Part shown: positions 11,099-44,700 of the stretch, one piece after another
Layout: each line of letters opens with the position of its first letter
Position numbering within the stretch: position 1 is the stretch's first letter
Virus record (IMG/VR): IMGVR_UViG_3300025316_000014
Coordinates: 1-64,000 of that record
Origin: a virus
Direction: 5' to 3' (one strand)
Length of the DNA: 64,000 nucleotides
Translations under genes and position numbers: made by a program
Notes under the pieces: generated by a model
Told to the model about the DNA's origin: nothing
What the model saw: the letters and a program-made list of their open reading frames with translations, nothing else
Database searches by the model: none

Positions 11099-11528
11099 TT
11101 CTCCCCTTTCTTATTATTGGCGGTGATAACAAAGTGCCAATTTTGTTATTAATATGCAACATTTCATCTAACCATTCTGGCAACTCTTCATTATGTGAAT
11201 CACACCATTGGCAGATAACATTTATTTGTGCTTGTGTCGCAATTTTATCTCCTTCCCACCATATTCCTTTCCCAGAACCGTATGCCCATGGTTCATCTCA
11301 TAATTTAATCCAACCAGCTTGCTCTAAATCAGTAATACCACGGCTACGTTCAAGAGTGATCTGTAGTCGAATATGTTCTTCACGAGAACAGCAGAATAAT
11401 TCCCCCTCCGGGGATAACCAGGCATACCTTACTAAGCTATTCTCGACTAGCACTGTAAATAATGGAACAATATCATTATCATCCCATTGTTCGCGTGCAA
11501 TGTTTACTAAACTGTATTGGCTGTTCAT
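11088..11528 (-). pseudogene. Gene interrupted by one in-frame TGA (readthrough or nonsense)
   Basis: The ATG at 11528 overlaps the polymerase stop as ATGA, and 76 residues follow to a TGA at 11298-11300. The same frame then stays open for 69 more codons to TAA at 11088 with protein-like sequence (GSGKGIWWEGDK, a CQWC pair, ELPEWLDEM) and has no good start codon of its own. The simplest reading is one 146-codon gene with a single in-frame TGA. TGA is a genuine stop elsewhere in this genome, so this is readthrough, a nonsense mutation or a sequencing error. No family is recognised. Confidence 0.5.
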
Positions 11529-14509
11529 CGTTTTAACACTTCTATCCCTCTGACAAATAAACAATCGCCTGTCCACCAGCCAGCAACAGCAACATAATCA
11601 CTGACTAAAATTTCTTTGAAAAATGGCAGTAAACGAGGAGCATCTTTCGCCGCAACTTTTGCCAAAATAACTCCTGTTTCGTCTTCGACAACAATATAGG
11701 CTCTGTCATTACTAACTTCTTTTACAGTAACATATCCTGCAATGCCGATATCATTTATTGGAGACCCGAACGGTAATTGTCCAGGTTGATATAATTGTTT
11801 AGCAATTCGTTTCTCTCTTTCCACCTCATCTGTATGAGGCACTGGTGCCCATGGAGCTAACCGTATAAGTTTTTGGATATTATACGGAGCATTACCTGTC
11901 GGTTTAGCAGCAGTTAATGCTTCTCTAGGAGCTTTTGGCATCGCGGCAAGCATTATTCCCCATGATGCGAATGGAGCAACAGTGGCCAACTTTTCAGCTG
12001 TTTTTTGCCCTATACCTTTAATCCCAGTATATCCTCCTACAAAGTATTTATCGGTAACTGCTCTGAAAGATGCTCCTGAATATTGTGGATTTAATATATC
12101 AATTTGCCCACCTAAACCCATGAATTCTCTAATCAACCGTTTTTGTGTCCATTCATTATCATCAAGAGCAAGATATGCTTCATAAAATTGTGCAGGAAAA
12201 TGCGCTTTAAGATAAAGCATCCAATATCCTATAAGAGCATATGTTGTGCCATGAGCTAGATTAAATAAGTACCCGCCGCATTCTTCTATTTGCTCCCACC
12301 ATGATGTTGCTTCGGCTGAAGAGAGATTATTCGCTATACAACCCGCTATGAATTTTTGCTCCCATTCCGAATTAAACCCGGATTTAACTTGTATCGCTTT
12401 ACGTAAAGCATGAACATCTTTCCATTCAAACCCTGCAACTTCACGAGCAAGCCTCATTACTTGCTCTTGATAAATAATAGCTCCATAAGTGCTTGAAACA
12501 ATCGTTTGACATTTAGGATCAATATGATTCAAGTATCTTTGGAAGGTTATATTATCCCGTTTATGTAAAGCGTATAAAGGTACAAGTTTTGCAGGTCCAG
12601 GACGGCATAAAGCTGATGCAGCAATTAAATCTTCAAATGTGTCTGCTCCAATTTCCCTTATAACCCGGGTTGCTGATGACCCATCAAGTTGGAAAATACC
12701 AGCAAGGCGTCCGTCCCTTGCTTCTTGCAAAGCGGCTTGATCATTCAACGGAATATGGTAAATCCAATTTACTTCTCCATTCCCAATATTTCGCAATGCT
12801 CTTCCAATAATGTCAAGTCCGTTGACCGATAAAACATCCATCTTAAGGAAACCTAAATCCGCCGCTCCTCGTTTATCAACTGCAGCAACAGGTTTACCAT
12901 CTTTGCTAATAACAACCCCAATCATATCTGCTAAATCCCGAGATGAAATAAGCAGACCAGCGGCATTTACAGAAGACTGCCGATATTGTCCGATAAGTTT
13001 TGGGAATATTGCAAGTTGTGGATATTTTGATATAATAGAAATAGCATCCGCATTTATCGTATCATCAAGCTGTTCTTCGCTATCATTATCGGCAGTAAGC
13101 GTATCGGATAATTTTGCGTATTCCGCTCGTGGAATATTCAAAACGAATGCTGTATCTTGCAATGCTTGACGAGCATGAAGCTGAGATAATGCCGTGATTT
13201 GAGAACATTTTGTTCTACCATATTTATTAAAAACATATTCTACAACAGAATCCCTCGCTCCGCGTTCAAAGTCCATATCCACATCAGGCGGGTCTACTCG
13301 GGTATCATCAAAAAATCTTTCAAATGATAAATTATGGGCAATTGGGTCAGTTTCACTTGCTCCTATTAGCCAGAGCAGCAAACAACCACCGGCAGATCCA
13401 CGGCAAGCTGCGACGGTATTCCGCTCTTTAGCATGCCGGACCATATCCTCTACGACGAGTAAATAATCAGCAAAACCGCGGCGGCAAATTACTTCCCATT
13501 CATACCACATTCGGTTAGCATACGCAGATTCTTTTCCGGGGAGTATCTGCCCAGCTATTTTACGGGTATCTATCCCTCGTTGCGCTAAATCAAGAAGATA
13601 CGCTCCTGAATCTGCAAAGTTCGCTGGAATTGTAGGGAAAGTGACAGGTTCGGCTTGCGGTATTATCACCCGACAAATTTCTCCAATAATATCCGTATTT
13701 ATAATAGCTTGCCTTAACCATTCGGGAGGAGTATTTATACAAACTGCTTGCGCTCGATCAAATAATTCCTCTGCCGAACAATAATATTGATAAGGAGGAA
13801 TATGTATTCCAATGTCAATATCGGTAATCTTTTTTCTCATTCCCGCACGTAACATAATTTGTTGTGCAGCATAATCTGTTGGGCGAGGGAAATGAGCATC
13901 AGCTGTTAGCACAAGAGGGAGTTGTAAATCGGCGGCAATCCGTGTTATAGCATCAGCTGTCAGGTGGCTTACATCATAATCAGGCTGAGGAACAAGTTCA
14001 ATAAATAATGCTTTAATATGTTTTGAAACATTATAAATAAAATCACATGTAGCATCGTACCCAGAAGATTGTAATAATCGAGTAGGATAGCCACTTGCGC
14101 ATCCAGTTAATACAATTAGCCCTTCTTGATTATTATATAAGGTTCGCCAATCAATTCTGGGCTTATAATACGCATTCTCCCAAGATAACCGACTTAATTT
14201 TAATAGGTTTACATACCCTATTGCATTTGCAGCAAGGACAGTCACATGAGGGAAAGCATTCACGCCAAGGGATGCCTGAAATCTTTCTCGTTTTGTTATA
14301 TCGTCTACAATATAAAATTCACATCCATAAATCGGCTTGATATTTCTTTTCTTTGCTGCCCGAGCAACTGGTACATGGCCGAATACATTGCCATGATCAG
14401 TTACTGCTATAGAAGATTGGCCTAATTCAACAATTCGGTCAATAATTTGATCAGCCGTGCCATACCCGTCAAGGAAAGATGTCGTTTGATGCCCGTGCAA
14501 ATGGATCAT
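11525..14509 (-). CDS. dnaE: Family C DNA polymerase III alpha subunit (DnaE-type) with PHP domain
   Basis: The 994-residue protein is shorter than bacterial DnaE (about 1160). The N-terminal PHP domain keeps likely metal ligands: HGH at residues 5-7, TDHGN near 37-41, CEFYI near 63, and TADAHF near 202-207, so it may have proofreading activity. The palm has CRGSAGG near 369-375, PDVDMDF with D411 and D413, and LKMDVLS with D558, matching the three catalytic aspartates of DnaE. A helix-hairpin-helix (GIKGIGQKTAEKL) lies near residues 829-841 and an OB-like C-terminus follows. It is expected to be the phage replicative polymerase, working with the primase-helicase upstream. An AAGG site precedes the ATG. 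Confidence 0.93.
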   Translation of the reverse strand: MIHLHGHQTTSFLDGYGTADQIIDRIVELGQSSIAVTDHGNVFGHVPVARAAKKRNIKPIYGCEFYIVDDITKRERFQASLGVNAFPHVTVLAANAIGYVNLLKLSRLSWENAYYKPRIDWRTLYNNQEGLIVLTGCASGYPTRLLQSSGYDATCDFIYNVSKHIKALFIELVPQPDYDVSHLTADAITRIAADLQLPLVLTADAHFPRPTDYAAQQIMLRAGMRKKITDIDIGIHIPPYQYYCSAEELFDRAQAVCINTPPEWLRQAIINTDIIGEICRVIIPQAEPVTFPTIPANFADSGAYLLDLAQRGIDTRKIAGQILPGKESAYANRMWYEWEVICRRGFADYLLVVEDMVRHAKERNTVAACRGSAGGCLLLWLIGASETDPIAHNLSFERFFDDTRVDPPDVDMDFERGARDSVVEYVFNKYGRTKCSQITALSQLHARQALQDTAFVLNIPRAEYAKLSDTLTADNDSEEQLDDTINADAISIISKYPQLAIFPKLIGQYRQSSVNAAGLLISSRDLADMIGVVISKDGKPVAAVDKRGAADLGFLKMDVLSVNGLDIIGRALRNIGNGEVNWIYHIPLNDQAALQEARDGRLAGIFQLDGSSATRVIREIGADTFEDLIAASALCRPGPAKLVPLYALHKRDNITFQRYLNHIDPKCQTIVSSTYGAIIYQEQVMRLAREVAGFEWKDVHALRKAIQVKSGFNSEWEQKFIAGCIANNLSSAEATSWWEQIEECGGYLFNLAHGTTYALIGYWMLYLKAHFPAQFYEAYLALDDNEWTQKRLIREFMGLGGQIDILNPQYSGASFRAVTDKYFVGGYTGIKGIGQKTAEKLATVAPFASWGIMLAAMPKAPREALTAAKPTGNAPYNIQKLIRLAPWAPVPHTDEVEREKRIAKQLYQPGQLPFGSPINDIGIAGYVTVKEVSNDRAYIVVEDETGVILAKVAAKDAPRLLPFFKEILVSDYVAVAGWWTGDCLFVRGIEVLKR

Positions 14510-15409: not shown

Positions 15410-15887
15410 TATTCACTCCTTTCGTTTTCGTAGCACATCTTCCTTTTCTTGAAGATATGCTTGTCCAATCCAATAATGGCATTTGTGGAGCAATAAGGCG
15501 AGAAAAAGCATCAATAGCTAACTCGCGTTCGCGATGGTAATGTCCCCACCATGACTTCCAGAATGCTTGGCTAATAATATCTTCTTCTCGGAGTGCGTCT
15601 ACCACGCCTAATCGCGAAGCTTCTATTACATGGCACAATTCATGTACTACAATCTCTCGCAGATATGCCATATCTGTATCTGTAAAGAAATCATCGTAAA
15701 AATAGAGGGTAAAAAAGCGTTGTTGAAATGAGTACCGTACATAAGCTATACTCCCTGAATCCTTTGGCGGTCGTTTATGCGAGAGTATAAATCTCCACTG
15801 TGCGAGTCCCATACGGTCTGCAATCTCGCAGATATATTTATTCAAAATATCCCAACGAATATCTTCATCTTTTCGATTTATTTTCAT
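15393..15887 (-). CDS. HExxH metallopeptidase-like protein
   Basis: The 164-residue protein contains VVHELCHVIEA with the HExxH zinc motif at H82, E83 and H86, and a downstream acidic cluster (RERELAIDAFSRL, around E122) that could supply the third ligand. Size and motif resemble SprT-like or other small phage metallopeptidases. It overlaps the primase-helicase stop by one base and is in the same operon. The substrate is unknown; SprT-like enzymes cleave DNA-bound proteins, which would fit a replication operon, by inference. Confidence 0.65.
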   Translation of the reverse strand: MKINRKDEDIRWDILNKYICEIADRMGLAQWRFILSHKRPPKDSGSIAYVRYSFQQRFFTLYFYDDFFTDTDMAYLREIVVHELCHVIEASRLGVVDALREEDIISQAFWKSWWGHYHRERELAIDAFSRLIAPQMPLLDWTSISSRKGRCATKTKGVNNVLRL

Positions 15888-18778
15888 TATTCACTCCTTT
15901 CTGCGATATAATCTCGCAGATATTGTACGAAAGTCGCTGTCTTTTCATATCCCATTTTGCGACCACGTTCGGCAGGGCGAATACATCCAAGTCGTTGTAA
16001 TACTGCAATAGGATTAACTTGGGTAACTGCTAATGGCCCACCAGGTATAATCGCATTCAATACTGTTGGCATAATTACTTCTAATTTTGTCAATTCTTTT
16101 GCAATAAATAAAGCATCCTCTGCATTAAACTGGCGTAAGAATATAGACATATCCTGCGAAATAGCGTCGCTTGTATTATCTCGTACAGTGTCCGTATACT
16201 CGAGATAACCCATTGCAGAATGTTCATACCACATAGCAAACATTTGTTCTGCGGCAATAATATGTTCTGCTTTAACTATTACCGTATTGTTTTCCGCAGA
16301 ATATAATTGAACAGCAATACTAACTGCGACTCTTGCAATTCTTCGTATTTGATCAGCTGGTTCAACAATTGGAATTGTCGACGAATACTTGTCGCACATC
16401 CGCAAAGCAAGAGCACTTATTATTTCGTATGCTTGTGGGGTAAACATTACTGCTGGAGTGGAATGCGCCCAAGCAATAAGCCCTTGATGAGCAGCTTTGC
16501 TATACCGAGCTTTTTCTCCTTTATGGACTGATGTTAAATTATGAAGAGAAACGTCCTCTTGCCTTACAATCATACCAAAATCAAATCTAGCGATTTCTTC
16601 GGGTTGTGGTATAATATCCTGAATTAACTCTATACCGGAAAGAGACTGTTGAGAAACGAGGGAACCTTTACCAGGATTAGCCAACCAAATAGCTCGTACT
16701 CGTGCTCTAAATTCTGCTCCGACTATTTTTGATATTTTGACAATTCCCTCACTACGGGGTAATGCCATTGCCGCCATTAAATCACCGCCGCCTATCGATT
16801 TAAACTCGTCAAAACAAATTACTCCACCGTCATTATTAGGAAGTACTCCGGGTAAAGCATAAAATTTTCCTGAACTTGTTTTTTCTATGCCGCCTAATAC
16901 TCCTGCAATTGATTGCATTTTACAATCCACAAGTGCTCCAGAACCATATAATTCTGTTAAGCGAGTGAACGTCATAGTTTTGCCGCAACGAGTATCCCCG
17001 ATAACTATTGCTTCAAGCCAACCACGGGTTACTAATGCTTCTGCAAAATTGAATGAAAGAAGTGAATGCCATATAGTCCGATATGCCATATGCAAATCCC
17101 GCCGACCATAAATAAATGTTGTGCTATCCGCTAAATCATCCGCTACATCGCATAACTTTTCAAAAGCAGTTTGCCCAGAAGCAGGCTGGAATGTTTTCAA
17201 TTCATTAAGAAGTTCAGGAGTAGCTAATTCTGCGAAAGTTGCTCTATGTGCTCCATGATAACCATCAGCTAGAAAAACTCCAAGTTGCTCTTCAGGATGA
17301 GGGTAGACAGTACCATTTAATATATAATCTCTGCCTTCCTCTACTCTGTCCTCTCCTAGAATAAAATAAGCTTCTCTATAATTCTTTTCAGCTCCATCTT
17401 GTTGTTCGGATAACGGCTCTGAGATTAATATTGGCTCAACGTCAACAGATTGAATAGGCTCAATATTCACCATTTCGCATGCTGGAGAAATGCCTAATGA
17501 TTTTTTAATGAAGGATAATTGTTTTATTTCCGGGACTTCTATCATTCGGAATACATCAGAGGATGTTGGATCAATATTCAATACTGTCGATCCAGCTAGT
17601 GTTGTGACCATAGGGCATCTACGACAAGAAGTACTTCCGCTCCCCTGGCAAGTGACTCGCATTTCTATCGGTAATATATATCTTTTTACAGATCGAGCAG
17701 TTACTCTCGCCATGAATTGAATGCGGTTACCAGAATTTTCAGCGCATATTGCTGTCCTGAATGTCCGCTCCTCTGGTTCATTATTTATTGTAGGCACTGA
17801 TGGAGACGACGCATTGTCAATAAGGTAATGAATGGCAGTAATAACCTGAGTGGGGGACGAACCGGATACATATAAGAACCTTATATAATCGCTAATATCA
17901 GCATTATCTGGTCGCCCTTCCCATACTGGTAATTGTATTATATTTATTTGCGCGGCAATATTTGTAAGTTCAGAAACACATCTCGCAACCGCATCTTCTC
18001 CAGGTTTGTCAATGTCCATAAGAATAGAAATGTGCCGCCCTGCCGCCCAACGTAAATCTGGTACAGGGACATTCGCTCCAAGGGTTCCGCATACAGCAGC
18101 AAAACCATGCGACCGAAGGGAAACTACATCCGGTTCGCCTTCGCATAAAATAACTGGGTCTTCATTCCATGCCTCTTTTGGCCAAACAAAATTACCACCT
18201 TCTCCAGACACTCGCCAGATAAACTTGGGGGAAATGTTTGGACGGTACATTCTCGCATTAATAAGTGTACCACTTTGATCATAAATTGGGAAAATAATGC
18301 GGCCAGTTCCTTCATCAAAACCAATTTTTAATTGATACGCAACTTCAAATGACCATGGTTTAATACTTGAAATCCAATCACGAATATCTTGTCTATTTCG
18401 CAGTGTTAATCGACAGGCGTCAAGCCACTCAACTGAAATAGGTTTTGAAACATGAAATTCATGGCAAAGATCGCGTTCTGTTTTGCCATAATCTGGGATA
18501 GCTCTTCCTGCACTGTCGAATTCATCTGCTCGCATAATCGCCATAAATGCAATAAAATCGCCGCCTCTTTCACTATTAAAACATCGCCAGAGGCCACTTT
18601 GTACATTAACAGAAAAACTAGGATTGCTATCTGATATATCAGGGAATGGGGAGCATGCTCGACGTTCTCCTCTATTATTAGCTGCTCCGAGGTTAGGGAT
18701 ATATGCTTCGTATACCGTATCCCAACCGATGCGTTCTAATACTGCTTTTAATTCTGCTTTCAATGGGATAATCCTCAA
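15887..18778 (-). CDS. Primase (CHC2-like/Toprim) fused to MCM-like AAA+ helicase
   Basis: Residues 1-100 resemble the DnaG zinc domain (SPFPDISDSNPSF and GGDFIAFM), but only C42 and C66 of the usual four ligands remain. A Toprim domain follows (LCEGEPD near 211-217 and LMDIDKPGEDA with D255 and D257). After a segment with C377, C385, C388 and C434 comes an AAA+ module: Walker A GDTRCGKT at 594-601, Walker B ICFDEF near 654-659, sensor ANP at 700-702 and arginine finger ARFDF with R731. These motifs match MCM helicases rather than the RecA-type DnaB module usual in phages. It should prime and unwind DNA for the phage polymerase. The start is TTG at 18778; TTG at 18763 has a better GAGG site. 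Confidence 0.8.
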   Translation of the reverse strand: MRIIPLKAELKAVLERIGWDTVYEAYIPNLGAANNRGERRACSPFPDISDSNPSFSVNVQSGLWRCFNSERGGDFIAFMAIMRADEFDSAGRAIPDYGKTERDLCHEFHVSKPISVEWLDACRLTLRNRQDIRDWISSIKPWSFEVAYQLKIGFDEGTGRIIFPIYDQSGTLINARMYRPNISPKFIWRVSGEGGNFVWPKEAWNEDPVILCEGEPDVVSLRSHGFAAVCGTLGANVPVPDLRWAAGRHISILMDIDKPGEDAVARCVSELTNIAAQINIIQLPVWEGRPDNADISDYIRFLYVSGSSPTQVITAIHYLIDNASSPSVPTINNEPEERTFRTAICAENSGNRIQFMARVTARSVKRYILPIEMRVTCQGSGSTSCRRCPMVTTLAGSTVLNIDPTSSDVFRMIEVPEIKQLSFIKKSLGISPACEMVNIEPIQSVDVEPILISEPLSEQQDGAEKNYREAYFILGEDRVEEGRDYILNGTVYPHPEEQLGVFLADGYHGAHRATFAELATPELLNELKTFQPASGQTAFEKLCDVADDLADSTTFIYGRRDLHMAYRTIWHSLLSFNFAEALVTRGWLEAIVIGDTRCGKTMTFTRLTELYGSGALVDCKMQSIAGVLGGIEKTSSGKFYALPGVLPNNDGGVICFDEFKSIGGGDLMAAMALPRSEGIVKISKIVGAEFRARVRAIWLANPGKGSLVSQQSLSGIELIQDIIPQPEEIARFDFGMIVRQEDVSLHNLTSVHKGEKARYSKAAHQGLIAWAHSTPAVMFTPQAYEIISALALRMCDKYSSTIPIVEPADQIRRIARVAVSIAVQLYSAENNTVIVKAEHIIAAEQMFAMWYEHSAMGYLEYTDTVRDNTSDAISQDMSIFLRQFNAEDALFIAKELTKLEVIMPTVLNAIIPGGPLAVTQVNPIAVLQRLGCIRPAERGRKMGYEKTATFVQYLRDYIAERSE

Positions 18779-18801: not shown

Positions 18802-18840
18802 AAAAATACCCACCGGAATACTATCTGTAATTCCGGTGGG
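18802..18840 (-). terminator. Intrinsic terminator
   Basis: CCCACCGGAAT at 18809-18819 and ATTCCGGTGGG at 18830-18840 form a perfect 11-bp stem with a 10-nt loop. On the minus strand it is followed by TATTTTTCTC. It lies between the ssDNA-binding-like gene and the primase-helicase gene, so it would terminate or attenuate read-through into the latter. Confidence 0.8.
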
Positions 18841-18872: not shown

Positions 18873-19727
18873 TTAACCGACAAGTTCTGGGCTATCCGTG
18901 CCGACGGAGTATGTACCATTCACTTTGTTGCGGATTTGTCCGCCATAATCGTCGTGTTTGATGCCGAATTTCACGATATTATCAACAAAATCCTGGCCAG
19001 CAGCATCGCCGATATATCGCGCTCCATCAGGGGATAGCAATTCAGTCGCTTCACACAATGACTTCCAACGCCATAATGCAGCATCTTTAAGGGAAATCGG
19101 GTCGTTGATAGTAACCCCCGCGAATTCCACCGGGAAAGTTGTTCGCATGGTAATAGTGACTAGACCGGTTTTGTCAGTTTTCGAACGGCCGATTGCGACT
19201 TTTGTGATAATCGCTTCATAAACAAGATTTTCCGGAAGCGGACGGAAGTTATTTGTTTCCACTCCCATCATGTTATATGACGCGAGGTCAACAGGGTCAG
19301 AATTGCCTCCAGCATCCGGTGGAGCAACTGCTCCAGCCGCAGCAAATTGGGCAGCGAGATTTGCAAGATCAGCGGCTGGTGGAGCATTTGTTGGCACATT
19401 TGCAAAAGGATCGATTACTCCAGCAGGCATAGCTGCGGGTACTGCAGCAGGTACACCCGGAACGAGTGGAATGCCTGGAGCGACAGGAATGCCTGGAGCA
19501 GGCGGCGGGGTTGGTGGAATGACAGGAGCAAGAGCGAGCATATATCCCTGCCCGATTAAGTCCGCGTCTTTCCACCCGGAAGCAATAAATTGATCATAAG
19601 TGATCGTTCCGGCTTTTTCAGTCATTACATGAATAGCCGGCAGTGCGTTTACTGCAGGAATTGAAGGGGTAACTGTCGGCGAAGCAACAGTCCCAGGGGT
19701 CGGTGTACCGGTGGCGCGTTTAGCCAT
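18873..19727 (-). CDS. DUF669-like probable ssDNA-binding protein with Pro/Ala-rich linker
   Basis: The 284-residue protein has an N-terminal segment YDQFIASGWKDADLIGQGYM like short motifs seen in phage replication proteins. A Pro/Ala/Gly-rich linker of about 80 residues follows. The C-terminal domain (residues about 160-284) has a beta-rich pattern, LVYEAIITKVAIG, later GQDFVDNIVKFGIKHDDYGG, resembling DUF669 and related ssDNA-binding proteins. It sits next to a RecA-type ATPase, as SSB-like partners of Sak4-type recombinases commonly do. A strong terminator follows, suggesting high expression. The assignment is by layout, so moderate. Confidence 0.55.
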   Translation of the reverse strand: MAKRATGTPTPGTVASPTVTPSIPAVNALPAIHVMTEKAGTITYDQFIASGWKDADLIGQGYMLALAPVIPPTPPPAPGIPVAPGIPLVPGVPAAVPAAMPAGVIDPFANVPTNAPPAADLANLAAQFAAAGAVAPPDAGGNSDPVDLASYNMMGVETNNFRPLPENLVYEAIITKVAIGRSKTDKTGLVTITMRTTFPVEFAGVTINDPISLKDAALWRWKSLCEATELLSPDGARYIGDAAGQDFVDNIVKFGIKHDDYGGQIRNKVNGTYSVGTDSPELVG

Positions 19728-19737
19728 AATATTCTCC

Positions 19738-20493
19738 TTATTTCGAATTACTGGCGCGTATTGCGCTCAGCATTTTCCCGATAAGATAGTCGATGTCTGG
19801 TGTCTCATATTCCGCAAGAACATTGAATCGATCTTTCGCATCGGAAAATTGATTGCGCTGAAATCTAATAAAGCGCACAACTTTTGTACTTATAACACTC
19901 GTTGCAGGATCTTTTACTTGTTGATCAATAATTCCATATTGCCCGAGTGCATCAAAGTGTTTAGCATATTGCGTTCCGTATTGCCCTTGAAAAGAAGGCA
20001 TATACATTAAACGATTTGTTGCCATATCAAGGTCTTTTACTTCATGAGCGAGGAATATTACATGCTTTTTCATTACTCTGAATAAGCGAGTAATATTCTC
20101 CATCATGAGTAAAATCTCCCCCCAACACTGTTGGTCAGGAGCGACCATTTTATGTGCTTTAGTAATCTCAGCAAGTAAAACTTTTTGTAATTCTGTCGCG
20201 GTATCTATTACAACAAGATCAAAACTACCTTGATGAGCATAAAGCCATTCCATGCCGCTCATAAAATCCACCTTACCACTATCGGGGCCAACTGGCCATA
20301 ATTTGATAAGTTGACGTTGAATTGTCGGCCATGTTTTAAGAGAAACTGCTCCAGAGTCAACATCAAAAATCACTGTCCGTAACCGTTGACTCCCACCAGC
20401 CAAAACAGTTTTACCTACTCCTGGTCCACCGTATATTAAAATATGGACGAATTCTTCTGTAGGAGTATCAAGACTAATTGGCTGTGTTATCAT
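19738..20493 (-). CDS. RecA-fold P-loop ATPase (Sak4/AAA_24-like)
   Basis: The 251-residue protein has Walker A GGPGVGKT at residues 22-29 and Walker B LVVIDT ending near residue 98, with a compact RecA-like core and no helicase motifs. Size and neighbours (SSB-like gene downstream, zinc-ribbon gene upstream) match phage Sak4-type single-strand annealing or strand-exchange ATPases. The ATG at 20493 overlaps the end of the upstream gene and has GAGG about 9 nt upstream; the longer frame to 20586 is within that gene. The likely role is recombination-coupled replication. Confidence 0.7.
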   Translation of the reverse strand: MITQPISLDTPTEEFVHILIYGGPGVGKTVLAGGSQRLRTVIFDVDSGAVSLKTWPTIQRQLIKLWPVGPDSGKVDFMSGMEWLYAHQGSFDLVVIDTATELQKVLLAEITKAHKMVAPDQQCWGEILLMMENITRLFRVMKKHVIFLAHEVKDLDMATNRLMYMPSFQGQYGTQYAKHFDALGQYGIIDQQVKDPATSVISTKVVRFIRFQRNQFSDAKDRFNVLAEYETPDIDYLIGKMLSAIRASNSK

Positions 20494-20854
20494 TAGGAGT
20501 AACCTCAATTGGATTAAAAAAATCTTCAACAAAATCGAATACTGCATCAATATCAATAGCGATAAATGTCTGCCCATTGCCAACATTTGTCATTAAAAAC
20601 CCATTGCTAACCCGGCTTATTTTTATTGTTTGGGCATTCCGACGGAGTTGCAATTCCGACTGTCGGCGGCGATCATTTGGAGTAGAAGTTCTGCAGACAT
20701 GGCATTGGTTAAATGCTTCCCCGAATGTACCATAAACAGCATGACAATCTTGGCATTCTTTGAGGATAACATTACAATTAGAACATCGAGGTTGGGGTAA
20801 AATAGTAGAAAATTCAACAGATTTCCCACATATTGGGCAATCAACAGTGCGCAT
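20474..20854 (-). CDS. Double zinc-ribbon protein
   Basis: The 126-residue protein has four CxxC knuckles in its first 55 residues (CPIC, CSNC, CQDC, CHVC), forming two zinc ribbons, followed by a basic stretch and an acidic C-terminal domain. AAGGAGAG precedes the ATG. A GGG-TATATA promoter-like motif lies about 50 nt upstream. It is co-transcribed with the Sak4-like ATPase. The function is unknown; a nucleic-acid-binding accessory role is plausible. Confidence 0.65.
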   Translation of the reverse strand: MRTVDCPICGKSVEFSTILPQPRCSNCNVILKECQDCHAVYGTFGEAFNQCHVCRTSTPNDRRRQSELQLRRNAQTIKISRVSNGFLMTNVGNGQTFIAIDIDAVFDFVEDFFNPIEVTPNDNTAN

Positions 20855-20945: not shown

Positions 20946-22652
20946 TTAGTTTGAATTCGGACTATTATTTCCTTTTCGCTTTACAGTGCCTGGGGATAGA
21001 CGAATAGCTAAGTCTCGTTTGTTATCGGTAGCTTGTAATACTGGTTCATCAATTGTATTTTCGCAAACTAAGTCAATATATTGTACTGGACCTATTCTTC
21101 CCATCCTATGGGAGCGATCCTCGGATTGCGACCGTTCAAGATATGACCACGAGTGGCTATAATAAATATTCCAGTCGCAAGCCTGTAAATTATGCCCGCA
21201 AGCAAGTTTCTTGATTTGAGCAACAATAACTTGTACACCATTTTCATCTCTGGAATTGAAAGATAATTTTATATTATCAAGGTCGCTATTAGAAGTATTT
21301 CCAGTTGCTATAACAACTTTTTCTGCTCTAAGAATTGCAGATAATTCTCGTTGTAATCTTATTATTTCGGCGGTAAATTTACACCAGATAATACAACGGA
21401 TATTCGGATATTCTAATAATCTATCCGCAGCGAAATGTTTTAGCCAATCAATTTTATACGACGGCAATTCTTCCAGACGAGTATCCTCTTCAGGGTCGTC
21501 GCTGACAATTGGTTTATGCCCGCCGACTATTTGTTGTAACCGCAACATTGTCACGCGTTCCCCTGATAAAGATAATAAAGAACCTAATGCTAAATCACCA
21601 TCAACTGCCACACGATCATATAGCTCTCTTACAGAGCGGGGTAGAACGAACTTTACTCTAACAGAAGGAACTTTCTCAGGTAAATCAAGGCATGATGTTT
21701 TTGTAGCCCGGAACCATAATGGCTCAATAATTGACATAAGCATCGGGACATTTTTTGCGCCAATAATTTTCATCATTTGTGTTGGCCCGTCTATTCCACG
21801 ACGATAAATTGTTCCTATTTCGCCGAATGCTTCAAGAAAATCATGCGCACTTCCAAGCCGCAAAGTAGGATCGATAAGAGTTAATTGCGAATACAAATCT
21901 CCAACATGATTGCCAATTGCAGTACCGGTTAATGCTAACCGAAATGATGCTTGGCGGGCGATGGGGAGTATAGCTTTATACGCTAATGTTTGCGGATCTT
22001 TTAATCGCCAACTTTCATCCAAAATAAGCATATTCGGATGAAAGTCGAATAACTCTAATTTTAATTTATTCGCCATTTCATAATTGATAATAACAATTGT
22101 GGGTGTGAATCCATGTTCAGTTGTCATTAATAAATCACGCCGTTCGGCTGATGATCCAGTGCCGATATCTATTATATTAACGTTCATATTGATACGTTCA
22201 GCTTCAGCAATCCATTCTCCGACAAGGGACTTGGGGCAAGCAATTAGTGTTCGGAATGCTCCTACTGCTTTAATTGTGGCTAATGCTGCCCTGGTTTTCC
22301 CAGTGCCCTGCTCAGAACCATTAAAAAACCCGCTGCGGGAGGACCCAATAGCAATAGACTGAAGTTGATGCCGAGCGAATTGATCGGGGTCAAGATGTGC
22401 GTTTGATAGAATAGTTTTAATAGTCTCAATAATAGTATTCGGAATATCCATTATTTGACTTCTTGCAATATTATAATCTTCTGATGTTGCGGTAATTACA
22501 GAAACTGCTTCGGCGCACATAAAATTCAAACGAGTTGCCGGCAATGCGACAGTCTCACTATTAAATACATGTGCTCCACTTCGGGATAAATCCGCGACTT
22601 CGTTAATACGACCATACGCGTAAATCCAACCGTCTTTGAATCCAAGTTTCAT
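20946..22652 (-). CDS. SNF2-type superfamily 2 helicase/ATPase
   Basis: The 568-residue protein has motif I EQGTGKT (near residues 114-120), motif Ia LIACPKSLVGEW, DEAD-type box LILDESW (D212, E213), motif III LTGTA (near 241-245) and motif VI QSEDRSHRMGR near residue 510. This order is that of SNF2-like helicases found in many phages. Such proteins are implicated in replication restart, recombination or countering bound proteins. The start overlaps the upstream DHH gene stop by ATGA. The specific role here is unknown. Confidence 0.85.
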   Translation of the reverse strand: MKLGFKDGWIYAYGRINEVADLSRSGAHVFNSETVALPATRLNFMCAEAVSVITATSEDYNIARSQIMDIPNTIIETIKTILSNAHLDPDQFARHQLQSIAIGSSRSGFFNGSEQGTGKTRAALATIKAVGAFRTLIACPKSLVGEWIAEAERINMNVNIIDIGTGSSAERRDLLMTTEHGFTPTIVIINYEMANKLKLELFDFHPNMLILDESWRLKDPQTLAYKAILPIARQASFRLALTGTAIGNHVGDLYSQLTLIDPTLRLGSAHDFLEAFGEIGTIYRRGIDGPTQMMKIIGAKNVPMLMSIIEPLWFRATKTSCLDLPEKVPSVRVKFVLPRSVRELYDRVAVDGDLALGSLLSLSGERVTMLRLQQIVGGHKPIVSDDPEEDTRLEELPSYKIDWLKHFAADRLLEYPNIRCIIWCKFTAEIIRLQRELSAILRAEKVVIATGNTSNSDLDNIKLSFNSRDENGVQVIVAQIKKLACGHNLQACDWNIYYSHSWSYLERSQSEDRSHRMGRIGPVQYIDLVCENTIDEPVLQATDNKRDLAIRLSPGTVKRKGNNSPNSN

Positions 22653-26119: not shown

Positions 26120-26743
26120 TTAATCCCCTCCTGTTTGTGAGGGTCCTCTGAGCAACCAGAGTAATGGAGCAGCTTCCATAATACTGTCATACATTGCTTC
26201 CGGATGGAACTGCACGCCAGCAGTTAGCTCATCATTTGATACAATCGCTTCAATGGTTCCATCGAGGGCCTTCGCCATAACACGAAACCCGGATGGGCAA
26301 ACAGCCGCCGCTTGATGATGCAAACTATTCACAAGCGGGGGAATAGTGAAAATATTCCTTTTAGCAATATATCCAAGTTGATGATAGCATGGGATAATCG
26401 GATGCTCATGAGCAGCACGATTAATATTCTGGATTAATTGTGCTCCATTCATCGCAGCGATTAATTGATGCCCACGGCAAATCCCAAGCGTCGGAATATT
26501 CCCTTCTTGAGCACGAACGAGCAAGCGACTTTCAATACAATCTCGCAAGGAAGGAGCTATTTTTTTCTCATTCGGAGTATAAAACCCCTGCCAGATGTCC
26601 GCTCCACCTAATAACAATAAGCGATCAAACTTACAAATTCGAGCATCTTTTTCGGTTAAAATCCAAGTGATATTGACGTTCACTTCAGCCAACATATTTT
26701 TTATGCTTTTGGAAAAGCTTCCGGGATATGCAACAAGTTTCAT
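26120..26743 (-). CDS. Class I glutamine amidotransferase-like / gamma-glutamyl hydrolase (peptidase C26-like)
   Basis: The 207-residue protein has the nucleophile elbow LGICRGHQL with C89, and the His-Glu pair in VQFHPEAM with H180 and E182, completing the triad. NSLHHQAA in between is typical of PuuD-type gamma-glutamyl-GABA hydrolases. No synthetase domain is attached. It ends a tight three-gene unit with an amidoligase. In amidoligase gene neighbourhoods such hydrolases are thought to cleave or edit gamma-glutamyl amide conjugates. The substrate is unknown here. The start overlaps the upstream stop as ATGA. Confidence 0.75.
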   Translation of the reverse strand: MKLVAYPGSFSKSIKNMLAEVNVNITWILTEKDARICKFDRLLLLGGADIWQGFYTPNEKKIAPSLRDCIESRLLVRAQEGNIPTLGICRGHQLIAAMNGAQLIQNINRAAHEHPIIPCYHQLGYIAKRNIFTIPPLVNSLHHQAAAVCPSGFRVMAKALDGTIEAIVSNDELTAGVQFHPEAMYDSIMEAAPLLWLLRGPSQTGGD

Positions 26744-26979
26744 AATTCTTCACCATTTCCTTCATCAATTTTTACAAGACCGATTAAAGCCATTCCGCGG
26801 ATAAGTTGCTCAGCGTCTTCGTGCTTGAGTTTATGACCACTATATAACTTTACTCTTCTTGCGATCTCGTCAACATAAGCATCGAGATTAATGGATCCTA
26901 ATCTATCCGCTTTTGCAAGGGCTACACTAATGGTAGCCCCTTTCGTTTGCTTACCATCCGGCCAAGTGATTGTTACCAT
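26740..26979 (-). CDS. Small protein between amidoligase and hydrolase
   Basis: The 79-residue protein begins VTITWPDGKQTKG, a beta-like start, then a helical remainder with a hydrophobic patch. Its ATG overlaps the amidoligase stop (TAATG) and its stop overlaps the hydrolase start (ATGA), so all three genes are translationally coupled. It could be a carrier, substrate or accessory protein of the amidoligase pathway. No conserved modification site is recognised. Confidence 0.6.
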   Translation of the reverse strand: MVTITWPDGKQTKGATISVALAKADRLGSINLDAYVDEIARRVKLYSGHKLKHEDAEQLIRGMALIGLVKIDEGNGEEL

Positions 26980-27971
26980 TATGCAGCACTCCTTAATGAA
27001 GCAACTCTCTTCATCCAGAATGCGAGGTGCTTGGCAGTGCAGTGCAGGTCATTCCACATTGAACTTGAAGAGACGGTTTGAGTATTCGCTGCGAAGCGCA
27101 TCATCGACTGTCCGAACCCTAACCATTCAACGATTTTATCGAAGTTCACAGTACCTTGATGCTGACGGAATTCGATAGTACCATGGCGGAGGAATGCACT
27201 GAAATTTACTGACGCATAACGGGTTCCGGTTATTTGACAGAATTCATGAATGGTTTGAGCATTCTGAAGACGAGAAGCAGTTAACATCCACTTAATTCCG
27301 CCGCAGTATTGGGGGTTGCGAGTTGAGCGACGGGACGGGGCGAGCATCATGTCAATTTCTTCTTGATGACTTGCATAGTATTTTGCAAGCTTCTTGAAAG
27401 AATCGATCGTGAAGTCTGTTGTCCCGTGGTGAATATGCAGACCGCAAGTTGTGTTCACTTTCGCTTTAACAACAACAAGGGCTTCACATGCTCTGCGGAG
27501 TTGGCTACGACCGTCTTCTCCTTGAAGGATGGGGCTCACAACTTCGCAACCATAATAAAGAGCAGTTGAACCACTTCCTCGAACGGAAGAATCACTGACC
27601 AGCTTCCAAGTGGTTGTGGAGTCGTTGTGGTTGTAGCCGTTGTCTTCCACATGCAAACCACGAATTCTCATTTCGTTCATGAGAATTTGGCGGGAGTTTT
27701 GGAGCGGAAGTAAGCATTCAATTTCAATTCCGAAGGTTCGGTTGTCAAACCACTCAGCGGCATTTGTTCCGAGTGTGGTTGTCAATTCAGACGTCGGAAC
27801 GCTATGGTTGAAGATGGAGCGACGGGTTGCTCTGTTTGAAGTGGAGGGGATTGCAATCCCGGCTTCGCGGGCGGCCCTTCGTGCTCTGCACTCGCGAGAC
27901 TGTTGTGCTCTGCGGGCTCTGGCTGCGATTTCGCTCTGACTTAATCCGAAGGTCTCAGCTGTTCGTGGCAT
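26979..27971 (-). CDS. Amidoligase (glutamine-synthetase-fold, PF12224-like)
   Basis: The 330-residue protein has a basic N-terminal extension rich in Arg, then the amidoligase signature: FGIEIE at residues 80-85, a WKLVSDSSV segment near 122-130, GCEVVSPIL near 141-149, TCGLHIHHG near 175-183, and a C-terminal TIEFRQHQGT. These correspond to acidic and His metal/ATP ligands of the COOH-NH2 ligase family, which forms amide or peptide bonds using ATP. The ATG at 27971 follows AAAGGGG, and a GGGTATAAT motif lies about 50 nt upstream. With the coupled hydrolase it predicts a gamma-glutamyl-type conjugation pathway, product unknown. Confidence 0.8.
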   Translation of the reverse strand: MPRTAETFGLSQSEIAARARRAQQSRECRARRAAREAGIAIPSTSNRATRRSIFNHSVPTSELTTTLGTNAAEWFDNRTFGIEIECLLPLQNSRQILMNEMRIRGLHVEDNGYNHNDSTTTWKLVSDSSVRGSGSTALYYGCEVVSPILQGEDGRSQLRRACEALVVVKAKVNTTCGLHIHHGTTDFTIDSFKKLAKYYASHQEEIDMMLAPSRRSTRNPQYCGGIKWMLTASRLQNAQTIHEFCQITGTRYASVNFSAFLRHGTIEFRQHQGTVNFDKIVEWLGFGQSMMRFAANTQTVSSSSMWNDLHCTAKHLAFWMKRVASLRSAA

Positions 27972-28014
27972 TTTAATTACCCCTTTCTGAGTCGGGGCTC
28001 TTGGCTCCCGCTCT

Positions 28015-28066
28015 ATATATATTATACCCACCGACCGACGATCTAAACACAATAACCTATAATTTT
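28015..28066 (-). promoter_or_regulatory. GGGTATAAT promoter and shared 17-bp upstream element
   Basis: On the minus strand GGG (28029-28027) and TATAAT (28026-28021) precede the amidoligase unit. A 17-bp string, CAATAACCTATAATTTT, at 28050-28066 also occurs exactly at 6342-6358 near the dUTPase gene, so it may be a common regulator site. Confidence 0.5.
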
Positions 28067-28139
28067 GAATAATTTTGAAAAATATTTTCTTGAGAGTGGA
28101 CCTTCCCCTCACTTACTGCTAGACGACTGGGCGTAAAGA

Positions 28140-31549: not shown

Positions 31550-32125
31550 TTATGTTGTCCTTGCTAAATCATCGCATGGCTGATTGAAAGGAGCGTCAGC
31601 AGAGGCATGGGACCGGAACCGCAGCGCTTGCAAATATTCATTTATTTCCGGCGTATATAAATGAAGGTTCATATTCGCTCGTATACATAAATTCCCACCC
31701 ATCGGTTCAAGTTGTTCGGCAAGACGACGACCGAATTGTGATCCGCCAATAATTCGATCCATTGGGCGGAGAGCATCAAATGCCGCATATTGTTCAGGAG
31801 TATAACATTTTGGATAGTAGCCTTCTGGAATTTCTACGACCACGGCATCGAACGCATAATATTCATGTTCAACTTCTTTCCGTGTTACCCATAATAATGG
31901 GTTCTTCGCTAAGTATTGAATTTCTTCAAAAATAGCCAGTGGGCGTTGTGGCGTTTTCCCGGGAAATCGTTTGAAAATTTGGCCAGCATAGGTAATATAA
32001 ATGTCGCCAATCTTCGTCCACCGTAGCCGCAGCCCGTCCTCGCATGAGTCAATTCTTGAACATTTTCCTTTGAAATCACGACGGATCGCTGCCATGAATA
32101 ACTCATTATCCTGAATTGCTTTCAT
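31550..32125 (-). CDS. Hypothetical protein, first gene of the leftward block
   Basis: The 191-residue protein has mixed alpha/beta character with many aromatic residues and no recognised motif. It follows a GGGTATAAT motif and an AAGGAAAT ribosome site. As the first gene after the non-coding switch region it is probably expressed earliest, and so a candidate host-takeover or regulatory protein, by position only. Confidence 0.6.
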   Translation of the reverse strand: MKAIQDNELFMAAIRRDFKGKCSRIDSCEDGLRLRWTKIGDIYITYAGQIFKRFPGKTPQRPLAIFEEIQYLAKNPLLWVTRKEVEHEYYAFDAVVVEIPEGYYPKCYTPEQYAAFDALRPMDRIIGGSQFGRRLAEQLEPMGGNLCIRANMNLHLYTPEINEYLQALRFRSHASADAPFNQPCDDLARTT

Positions 32126-32154
32126 AATATTTCCTTTGTGTATGTGTGCAGTGT

Positions 32155-32169
32155 ATAGGTATTATACCC
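32155..32169 (-). promoter_or_regulatory. GGGTATAAT promoter-like motif of the leftward block
   Basis: On the minus strand GGG (32169-32167) and TATAAT (32166-32161) lie about 35 nt upstream of the first leftward gene's start. It is the most upstream candidate promoter of the early block. Confidence 0.5.
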
Positions 32170-32898
32170 TGTTGGGAGGCGGATAAACCTCTTTCTTTGT
32201 TTATTCATGTATTTATTGCACGGGCATATATGCGCGCGAGAGAGTCTTTTTGTTTTGAATCCAGAGGATATTTATTTTAATTGCTATTACTATACACACA
32301 CATATGCTCTTGATTTCAAAAAGGAGGTTTTGGTTTCAAAAAGGGAATTTTGGTTTCAAAATGAGAGTTTTAGTTTCAAAAAAGGAGGTGATAATTTTGT
32401 ATAATTTTGTTGTGGTGTAGGGGGTGTTACGCGGACGAAGTTTTGGAAAAGTGACTTTTGCTATTTGTGATATTTTGTACTAATATCTTTTTCGCATGTT
32501 TTATTTTAGTAATAGTGAAGGAAATCGAGTAAGGATTACAGGCATAATGGATAGATTTGTTGTCATGTGTTTGTATGGATGCACATACCGTTGAACAACT
32601 GAACATCTTGTGTATGTATGTGAAAATATTTGTGAGGAATTCTTATTTTTCTTCACTTACATACTATATATATAGATTATCCTGGGCGTGCATGCACTAG
32701 ATGTTTAATTGTTGAGTGGTGTGTGTGACTATATACATATACTTATACATATTTATATATATATATTTGAGTTCAAAAAGGGGGTATTTGTATTAAAAAC
32801 GTATGTGCGTTGAGTGCGGATCTTATTTGGAGAATGCCGTTTGGAGGAAGGGGAAAGAGGGGAGAATGTATTGATGAGACGATGAAAGGTGGAATAGC
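32170..32898. other. Non-coding switch region between early and late blocks
   Basis: About 730 bp of strongly AT-rich DNA has no convincing gene on either strand. It contains the four iterons listed separately, a fifth degenerate TTCAAAAAGG copy near 32772, stretches of alternating TATATA near 32675-32695 and 32735-32770, and purine-rich DNA near 32830-32885. A strong GGGGAG site is followed by a two-codon ATG TAT TGA near 32867. It could hold an origin and divergent promoters. Confidence 0.5.
32312..32391. repeat. Four iterons of exactly 20-bp period
   Basis: TTTCAAAA occurs at 32314, 32334, 32354 and 32374, each within a 20-bp unit of the form TTTCAAAAAGGGAATTTTGG. The constant period of about two helical turns and the AT-rich setting between divergent blocks resemble replication-initiator or regulator binding arrays. 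Confidence 0.7.
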
Positions 32899-33027
32899 AT
32901 GGTTATCTTTATTGCGATGGTCTTTATTCTTATGACGCTGCCCTACTCAGCCAAACCACTTTGGCAAATTGTGAACGGAATTGTACGGAGTAGCGTTTGG
33001 ATAGCATCCCGTTGGGGTAAACTATAA
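32899..33027 (+). CDS. Small hydrophobic peptide
   Basis: The 42-residue peptide begins with a hydrophobic segment (MVIFIAMVFILMTLPY) and ends with a basic, aromatic part. AAAGGTGG lies 6 nt before the ATG. It is the first rightward gene and sits upstream of the endolysin, so a lysis-related membrane peptide is possible. Short length limits confidence. Confidence 0.45.
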   Translation: MVIFIAMVFILMTLPYSAKPLWQIVNGIVRSSVWIASRWGKL

Positions 33028-33051
33028 TATTCATCTGGGTGGAGGATGGTC

Positions 33052-41766: not shown

Positions 41767-44700
41767 ATGTCAATACATTTTGAAAATCAACTTCAGGCGA
41801 TTAAGTACTGCGAAGGGAAATATCCTACAGTGCATTTTGACTTTGGCGGAATGTCGCTTGAAGTACTCGATCAATTAATCCCACAAATCAATAAGTTAGC
41901 TATTGAATATCCTGGAGTTATGAATCAAATGAAATTGATCGGCCGTGGGTTGCATGGTGAATGTGAAGGGGGTTATGCTTCAATAAATGATGCCGGGAAT
42001 GCTATTCATTTGAATGAAAAATACTTTTCAAATGCGGAGTTATTTAAGCAATGCTTGCAAGAAGATGCTGCGGAGGATTTTCACCCAGAAGGGTGTAATA
42101 CATTTGCAAGCGTATTTTCTCATGAATTCGGCCATGCGGTTGAAACTTATATGCGGACTCCGGATGCAAATCTTGGAGAAGGATCTGCTTTAGCAGGAGC
42201 ATTCGCTGATAAAATGTATGGCTCATCGTCATTGTCTCATTATTCTCAAACAAACCCTAATGAAGCATTCGCTGAAGGTTTCGCTGCAATACACCATGCG
42301 CCTCCAGGGGCTGGTTGTCTAAAGACACGATATATTGAACAGCAACAGACACTCTTGAATGTTGTCAAAAAACGTGACCCATTATCTGGAGCTGAAACAG
42401 AAAAGCTCGCAAATGAAATGGGACTACCTAACCTCTACAATAAGCCAGTTCAAGTTGACCAGCTTAACGTGGTAAAGAATGTGGAGGGAACAGAGGAAGG
42501 CCTACAACCTGGAAAGTTCGCAACAATCAAAGAAGCGCAAGCCTGGATGAAGCAACATTATCCAAAGATTATTTGTACTGGTTTCTCGGAAGCGCATGTT
42601 GATTGTTTAAATCCTACGATTGAACAATTCCATATTCTTGCTCAAAAGTATCCAAAAGTCGCTAAGTCATTACAACGGATTAGTGTAGAGAAAATGCCGG
42701 CGGATATTTATGCGCAAGCTTCTGGCGAGTCAGCCTTACTCTTGAACCCTAAATATTATGGTAACCCTAAATTATTTAATAAGGTACTTACTGAAGACTC
42801 GAATATAGGATTTGGGCCGAAGGGATGTGGAACAATTGCCGCGATATTAACCCATGAATTTGGGCATAGTGTTCAAGAAGCATATAATCTTATCCCTCCG
42901 GAGTCAGGAAACAAAGAGAAGTTTTTCGCAAACCATCCGGATATTTCAAGAATTTCGCAATATGCTATGACAAATTATCGTGAAGCGTTCGCTGAATCTT
43001 TTGTCGTTTTAAATACTCCAACTGCCTCTGACGTTGCACGTTATACTCCGTATGTTACAGACTTGGCACGGTGGTCAGAAAACTTGCAGAAAAAGAATGC
43101 AGAAAAAGCCGCAAAAGCTGCACAAAAAGCTGTTCTGCCGGAGAAAGAAAAAAGGGCATCCGAACCTTCTACGAATACGGAAAATATTCTTCCAAAGCCG
43201 AAACCTGAGGTTATTAAGCCAGCATCCCCTCCTCCTGTTGACCCAGAAACACAACAACTTTTGGATTGGTATCAACGCATCGAGGCGCAATTAACTGAAC
43301 AACTGACCGCGTCATTATTGGCAACTTCTCCTCATGAATATGCGCTTGCTCAGGATAGACTGCGGCAAGTGGAAAATGAGATTGGCAGACTGCGGGGAGC
43401 GGCTGATACTTGGGATGAGCATGTTATTCGAGCAAGTTTTCATCAAGGTCAGCAATATGCCGCTGATGAATTATTAGCGACGGGCATTTCATCGTTTGAA
43501 CAACAATCTTTTAATACTATTCCTACAGAATTATTAAAATTATTAGCATCAGAAGTTGCTGGTAAACGTGATGGAATGATATCGAATATCCTGCGGCAAC
43601 AACATGATTATCTTCGGACGCTTGCTTCTGGGGAATTAGCCGAAGGATTTGGTCTTGGCAAGTCTGCATACGCAATTGGATCAGCTATCCGAAATGGAAC
43701 GATCAATCAAATCAGAAATGGCAGAGCTATTCAAGATCTTGCGGACGGAATTGTACAAACAACTGGCGTGCGCTATTCGGATGGATCTATCCATAGTTTA
43801 CAGGCTTATGGGCAGATGGCCGCTCGTACAGGAACAATGGCAGCATACGCCGTTGGAGCTCAGCAAAATTTTATTGATATGGGTGTTCATGTTGCCTCAG
43901 TGAGTAAACAAGGTTCTTTGTGCTATATTTGCCGACCGCTTGAAGGAAAATGTTTTGCTTTAGACGAAGAAGGGGAGAAACAAGGATATCCGCCATTAGG
44001 GAAATATCGTTTCCCGTTACACCCTAATTGTTTACACTCTTTAGTACCGGAAATGTTTCCTGATAAAAAAGAAGATTTGTTACCACCGAAAGCATTCCTG
44101 CAAGGAGATAAGCGGGAGATGCTCCGTCAATTCAAAGAATCTAATAACTCCGATTATAAAATGTCGCGAAGAGGATTTACCAGTCGGGATCAAGTGAGAA
44201 CTTGGCGGAATGCTAATCCTGATGTTGCATCAGAAGATCTTCGTGGGCCAAGGTATCGATATGCTGGAATTGAAAAGCGACGAAATCATGCAGTAGAAGC
44301 AATGCTTCAAGACCCCAAACTTACGTATGCCGCAGCGATGTCTCGTCAAACTGCTCAATTTATGAAATCAAGCGAATATATTCGGCTTGTTCCACCGGTG
44401 ACGCCAACAGAACAAAAAAGGCGGGTACGGTTTGGAGCAATGTCGCTTCCGGATATGCCTGCAATGCAGAATAAATATGTTCAGGAAATGAAAAAGCAAT
44501 TAGGTTCTGTTGACTATATTGACTATAGCGGTAATGAACCGACAAGCCATTTTATGTATCCAGACGGGACAGTGACAAAACCTCTTCAAGATGGACATTG
44601 GGATATTGCATCGGACATATCAGATAATATTAATGAATCTATTGGAATAAATCTTGACGGATTTTTGCATAAGTCTGGCACAATCCGGATTGCTACAACT

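Follow-up and report, generated by a model that had tools for sequence, protein, structure and literature searches.

The gene at 15887-18778 on the minus strand of the window, the whole 64,000-nucleotide stretch of DNA analyzed here, very probably encodes a replicative helicase-primase in which a DnaG-type Toprim primase is joined to the N-tier of an MCM-type AAA+ helicase, presumably a hexamer. It is a single unbroken open reading frame (ORF) of 963 codons. Translation likely begins five codons further in, at a second TTG (18763), judging by the Shine-Dalgarno-like GAGGA that precedes it. Genes for terminase, major head, and tape-measure proteins are present in the 66,089-base IMG/VR virus record from which the window came.

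15887..18778, minus strand: Toprim primase-MCM-type helicase fusion gene (ORF, translation, full-length conservation in relatives)

Distribution of the fusion

The fusion is confirmed as real: full-length conservation in tens of independent contigs means that it is neither a chance product nor an assembly error. By tblastn, 47 phage records had at least 80% coverage of the fusion, with Microbacterium, Arthrobacter, Bacillus, Weizmannia, and Paenibacillus as hosts, plus one metagenomic siphovirus. Scanning viral and genome contigs with a single sequence gave no matches; the relatives were found by alignment-based scans, which confirmed 171 of them among viral contigs. The fusion was conserved in 80 fetched viral loci, where complete ORFs were nearly all about 920 to 1,010 amino acids long, with one of 1,143. 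The original prediction had regarded such a fusion as unusual among phages, a view contradicted by 47 full-length phage records and some 170 viral contigs.

In public records the family is annotated as "DNA primase," "DNA primase/helicase," "DNA primase small subunit," or "DNA directed DNA polymerase." The last two names, given as "DNA primase small subunit" (BSTP5, Youna2) and "DNA directed DNA polymerase" (ctIqW946) to the Toprim-type fusions of loci L004, L007, and L002, appear to be wrong. One contig (L100, 2435-4354) encodes the helicase half alone, adjoining Sak4-like and SSB-like ORFs; no primase lies in the same ORF, and none was recognized by eye elsewhere in this 9.9-kb contig.

Primase half

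The N-terminal half of the protein has two domains:

18509..18673, minus strand: degenerate CHC2 zinc-ribbon domain, residues 36-90 (Pfam and ligand comparison, 84 sequences)
17816..18331, minus strand: RNA-polymerase basin and Toprim fold, residues 150-321, with R176, K185, E215, D255, and D257 (Toprim_2, dnaG)

Both were matched by Pfam models above their curated cut-offs, CHC2 (Zn_ribbon_DnaG) at residues 40-90 with 28.3 bits (cut-off, 24.9) and Toprim_2 at residues 210-295 with 23.3 bits (cut-off, 22.1), and the NCBIfam dnaG model matched the window protein with an E value of 1e-16. Within the CHC2 finger, S43 replaces Cys, P46 replaces His, and the second CxxC is absent, which bears out the Toprim primase with a degenerate CHC2 domain that had been proposed from the sequence. 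The first CHC2 ligand pair survives in 76/84 aligned sequences, and combined ligand loss is common only to the window protein and its nearest relatives, L011 and L012. With these ligands gone, proteins of the window's clade may recognize the template differently.

The catalytic residues of this half are strongly conserved. E215, D255, and D257 of the Toprim fold are kept in 84/84 sequences, the basic RNA-polymerase residues R176 and K185 in at least 95%, and no relative in the 84-sequence alignment was seen to have lost the Toprim catalytic core. This pattern argues against a Toprim half without primase activity, as in animal Twinkle, which would make the protein a helicase or DNA-remodeling factor only. 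We consider such a loss of function unlikely, even with the absence of CHC2 ligands in the window clade and a finger that is degenerate in the bacterial contigs L098, L101, and L103 too, both of which would fit it. A DnaG-type primase is thus our preferred reading of the N-terminal half.

Helicase half: sequence evidence

The remainder of the protein is, by sequence comparison, a remote member of the MCM fold family and no canonical archaeal MCM. Its features are as follows:

17249..17737, minus strand: MCM-like N-tier with OB fold, residues 348-510 (AlphaFold strands, Foldseek to MCM)
17477..17650, minus strand: four-cysteine (zinc) module in the OB fold, C377, C385, C388, and C434 (83/84 sequences)
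16289..17161, minus strand: MCM-type AAA+ module, residues 540-830 (Pfam MCM, PDB profile search, structure, conservation)
16976..16999, minus strand: Walker A, GDTRCGKT, residues 594-601 (G594 and K600 invariant)
16805..16822, minus strand: Walker B, VICFDE, residues 653-658 (E658 invariant)
16586..16588, minus strand: arginine-finger-like R731 of ARFDF (invariant, 84 sequences)
15890..16207, minus strand: likely C-terminal winged-helix-like domain, residues 858-963 (model, lower confidence; MCM analogy)

All of the AAA+ motifs first noticed in the sequence (Walker A, ICFDEF, ANP sensor, and ARFDF) were located, with G594-K600-T601 in Walker A, CFDE658 in Walker B, N701 in the ANP sensor 1, and R731 in ARFDF. 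Across the 84-sequence alignment G594, K600, E658, N701, R731, D733, and F734 are invariant; position 684 is K or R in 70/84, and the presensor-1 K684 aligns with the archaeal MCM Lys.

Searches with these sequences led to MCM. Against PDB sequences the single window protein had SsoMCM as its top match (E = 1.8e-7), with mostly MCM below, and a helicase-half profile of 58 sequences run against all PDB sequences returned MCM only among the 60 matches listed (best E = 1.6e-12). This profile scored archaeal MCMs at 50, 43, 32, and 15 bits and E. coli ComM at 6 bits; the MoxR-type RavA was absent from the matches listed by the same profile that ranks archaeal MCMs.

Other comparisons were less specific. 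The Pfam MCM model (PF00493) matched residues 556-740 with 27.9 bits (curated cut-off, 23.3), which is weak evidence when taken alone because this model was above cut-off in 14/14 control genomes, E. coli included; we dropped the match as proof of MCM for that reason. The NCBI MCM model NF040949 gave the window protein 19.3 bits (cut-off, 940). Run in the opposite direction, an archaeal MCM profile scored ComM at 48 bits and the window protein at 45 bits, and in an AAA+ tree ComM, whose branch was very long, sided with MCM. The control-genome result, this profile, and the position of ComM in the tree would each fit a ComM, MoxR, or magnesium-chelatase-type ATPase as the AAA+ half, a member of the same helix-2-insert clade with a role in branch migration or remodeling and not as the fork helicase.

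Helicase half: predicted structure

An AlphaFold model of residues 338-963, built with 58 sequences, had a pLDDT of 91 and a pTM of 0.84. In a fold search with this model, all of the 50 PDB matches listed were MCM chains. The best listed was yeast Mcm5 (E = 4e-25 over 548 columns), SsoMCM matched with a TM score of 0.66 by target length, and identity to true MCM over the fold match was about 16%. The fold search with a full-length model also gave MCM only among the first 50 matches listed.

The Pfam MCM OB-domain had no match in the window protein by sequence profile. In the model, OB strands lie at residues 352-362, 367-377, 437-453, 468-473, 483-493, and 500-509, with a cysteine module (377-434) inserted after the second of them; the zinc module of MCM has the same insertion point in its OB fold. 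C377, C385, and C388 are kept in 83/84 sequences, and each of these 83 has its fourth Cys within 428-440. The set that the original prediction saw between the two halves and tentatively took for the MCM zinc region is thus real, conserved, and located inside the OB fold. Two model hairpins (629-643 and 679-691) correspond to the helix-2 insert and presensor-1 hairpins. At the C terminus, residues 858-963 form helices and two short strands (a beta-wing) with a pLDDT of about 60 to 90, and by analogy with MCM this part of the model is likely a winged helix. Between the primase end (~321) and the OB start (352) there is a 4-residue helix only; with almost nothing in this interval, the protein lacks MCM subdomain A, whose position the primase occupies.

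The result that had been named beforehand as contrary to an MCM assignment, a MoxR-like ATPase with no OB domain, was not what we found: the OB fold is present, and RavA is absent from the profile matches listed. An OB fold with a four-Cys insert and a presensor-1 Lys, together with MCM as the only kind of match among the 60 profile and 50 fold matches listed and a reciprocal profile that separates MCM (50 bits) from ComM (6 bits), makes a non-MCM AAA+ ATPase very improbable. The choice of MCM rather than DnaB is likewise supported, as both profile and fold lead to MCM and the record has no PF03796 match. We therefore keep to an MCM-type helicase.

Replication neighborhood

The fusion gene lies among other genes with predicted replication functions:

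11525..14509, minus strand: PolIII-alpha (DnaE-type) polymerase with PHP domain (Pfam DNA_pol3_alpha, E = 2e-53; PHROG 405)
18873..19727, minus strand: putative ssDNA-binding protein, upstream of the fusion (weak Gp2.5-like match to PHROG 7011, E = 0.02; synteny)
19738..20586, minus strand: Sak4-like RecA-type ssDNA-annealing ATPase (PHROG 124, E = 1e-35; Pfam AAA_24)
20946..22652, minus strand: SNF2-type SF2 helicase (Pfam SNF2-rel_dom, PHROG 62)

The replication block runs in the order SNF2 helicase, Sak4-like ATPase, SSB-like protein, fusion, and PolIII-alpha. A similar gene order was observed in Hiddenleaf, Wollypog, BSTP5, and Youna2, with PolA in BSTP5 and Youna2; Youna2 also encodes a DUF669 protein at a place similar to that of the putative SSB gene.

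With one Pfam model for DnaB_C (PF03796), we found no match in any of 30 viral records with the fusion, the window record included and several of them possibly incomplete, nor in any of 8 phage or plasmid records. PolIII-alpha was encoded in 20 of these 30 viral records and PolA in 10. Because no DnaB-type helicase was found and all 30 have a PolIII-alpha or PolA of their own, the fusion most likely serves, on the evidence of gene content, as the replicative helicase-primase of the phage. The fusion could instead act in restart or in recombination-dependent replication, leaving replication of the phage genome to host DnaB, as its location next to the Sak4 and SNF2 helicase genes might suggest, but a polymerase in 30/30 records points to a self-contained replisome, and we hold this role to be distinctly unlikely. 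The replicative assignment is retained below.

An 11-base inverted repeat without mismatches (CCCACCGGAAT/ATTCCGGTGGG) lies at 18809-18840, between the SSB-like and primase-helicase genes, and leads into a run of T on the minus strand. It is a possible terminator, although unflagged by a consensus scan; around the fusion gene, that terminator and promoter scan did no better than on shuffles. In the Microbacterium/Arthrobacter homologues of L003 (~490 bases upstream), L005, and L006, a stretch of 430 to 500 bases without annotated genes lies directly before the fusion gene.

Elsewhere in the window, about 920 bases without a plausible gene lie between divergent gene blocks (32100-33050). This region has four 20-base direct repeats (TTGGTTTCAAAAAGGAGGTT) at 32310-32389 and another copy at 32767, as well as AT-rich sequence containing TATATA and a steep local rise in GC skew, and it is a candidate origin or control region on these sequence features. 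We also observed two ThyX-type thymidylate synthase genes in this one phage (9423-10196 and 29708-30316), a glutamine amidotransferase-like gene beside an amidoligase-like gene (26120-28112), and a 1,880-residue protein with zinc-finger-protease and minor-head matches (41767-47409).

Primase exchange on a shared helicase

A homologous helicase half was also found behind a PriS-like archaeo-eukaryotic (AEP) primase, in Bacillus phage vB_BboS-125 and B. velezensis plasmid p3. The window helicase half is 26% identical to that of p3 over 502 residues (E = 5e-46). These AEP-MCM proteins matched DNA_primase_S (E ~4e-10) and MCM (E ~3e-13). The DNA_primase_S match was confined to P0009 and P0010, and the window protein has Toprim at its N terminus instead of AEP. 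Proteins of the AEP-MCM type are also encoded by bacterial contigs L092-L095, and L096 encodes the helicase part of such a protein; identity to the p3 helicase is 67 to 73%.

In both rooted trees the AEP-fused sequences formed one clade (100/99) within the Toprim-fused ones. Branching at the root differed between these trees, and an AU test left the alternative standing (P = 0.107), so that one exchange of non-homologous primases (Toprim and AEP) on one helicase is well supported by the sequences, with either direction possible. Bacterial contigs L098, L101, and L103 belong to the Toprim-MCM group, have a separately degenerate CHC2 finger, and were positioned near the AEP-fused clade. In the AAA+ tree, archaeal MCMs made up one group (100/93) and the Toprim/AEP-MCM family another (95/87); the ComM and RavA outgroups had extreme branches (5.2 and 7.2), which make the root unreliable and their placement not readable.

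Relation to known systems

Like SsoMCM and MCM2-7, the window protein has an OB N-tier with a cysteine module, a helix-2 insert, a presensor-1 hairpin, an RFD arginine finger, and a probable winged helix; it differs from them in its ~16% identity and in the absence of subdomain A, where the primase is found. In T7 gp4/Twinkle and the phage Toprim-DnaB primase-helicases, CHC2 and Toprim domains are N-terminal to a ring helicase. The helicase of T7 gp4/Twinkle is of the RecA-type SF4 (5'-3'), whereas that of the window is an AAA+ MCM, expected to be 3'-5', without DnaB_C. The "DNA primase/helicase" genes of Microbacterium Krampusvirus, Bacillus BSTP, and Arthrobacter Wollypog share the window architecture from end to end at ~24 to 28% identity. 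Their annotation does not name MCM, and most keep the CHC2 ligands that the window protein does not.

AEP primases joined to MCM are already known from bacterial phages and plasmids (PMC5862659, PMC4538821). BcMCM, an AEP-MCM fusion from a Bacillus cereus prophage, has 3'-5' helicase and primase activities (PMC4538821, PMC5862659) and is, like the window protein, a bacterial phage protein with a primase N-terminal to its MCM-type helicase. The BcMCM primase is archaeo-eukaryotic, whereas that of the window is the non-homologous Toprim (DnaG) type. Our comparison drew on its AEP-MCM relatives from vB_BboS-125 and B. velezensis p3, whose helicase half is homologous to that of the window. Another MCM-like helicase, Cch, is encoded by the bacterial mobile element SCCmec together with a small ssDNA-binding protein (PMC7581432); it resembles the window protein in being MCM-like and is set apart, by its published description, in having no Toprim primase. 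Primase-MCM fusions with AEP are therefore known; of a Toprim-MCM fusion we found no description in the literature covered, which did not extend to the main survey (Kazlauskas 2016), and within that coverage it is apparently undescribed.

Proposed mechanism and implications

In the mechanism that we propose, the MCM-type half, made up of an OB fold and its zinc module, an AAA+ ring, and a likely C-terminal winged helix, would assemble as a hexamer around DNA and unwind the fork. The Toprim primase, held at the N-tier where MCM has subdomain A, would make primers on the excluded strand emerging at the fork; the PolIII-alpha encoded nearby would extend the primers, and the SSB-like protein would coat the single strand. 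We infer the hexamer, its 3'-5' polarity, N-tier-first translocation, and the coupling of priming to unwinding. In the eukaryotic CMG the N-tier faces the fork, and by the same geometry a primase at the N-tier could meet the excluded lagging strand. On balance we lean toward a widespread class of phage replisome that combines a DnaG-type primase with a 3'-5' MCM ring tracking along the leading strand, in which the primase replaces subdomain A on the tier facing the fork and Toprim and AEP, two unrelated primase folds, have been exchanged on the helicase chassis.

Known bacterial-type primases act with ring helicases that move 5'-3' along the lagging strand, and archaeo-eukaryotic ones with MCM, which moves 3'-5' along the leading strand. 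If Toprim-MCM shares the 3'-5' polarity of MCM and BcMCM, it would place a lagging-strand-type primase on a leading-strand helicase, unlike T7 gp4. With its sister AEP-MCM on one and the same helicase, it would offer a way to learn if helicase polarity is tied to the fold of the primase and by what route one primase gives way to a non-homologous one. The Toprim-MCM family is common in phages and includes phages of the laboratory hosts B. subtilis and Microbacterium foliorum, which makes such tests practical.
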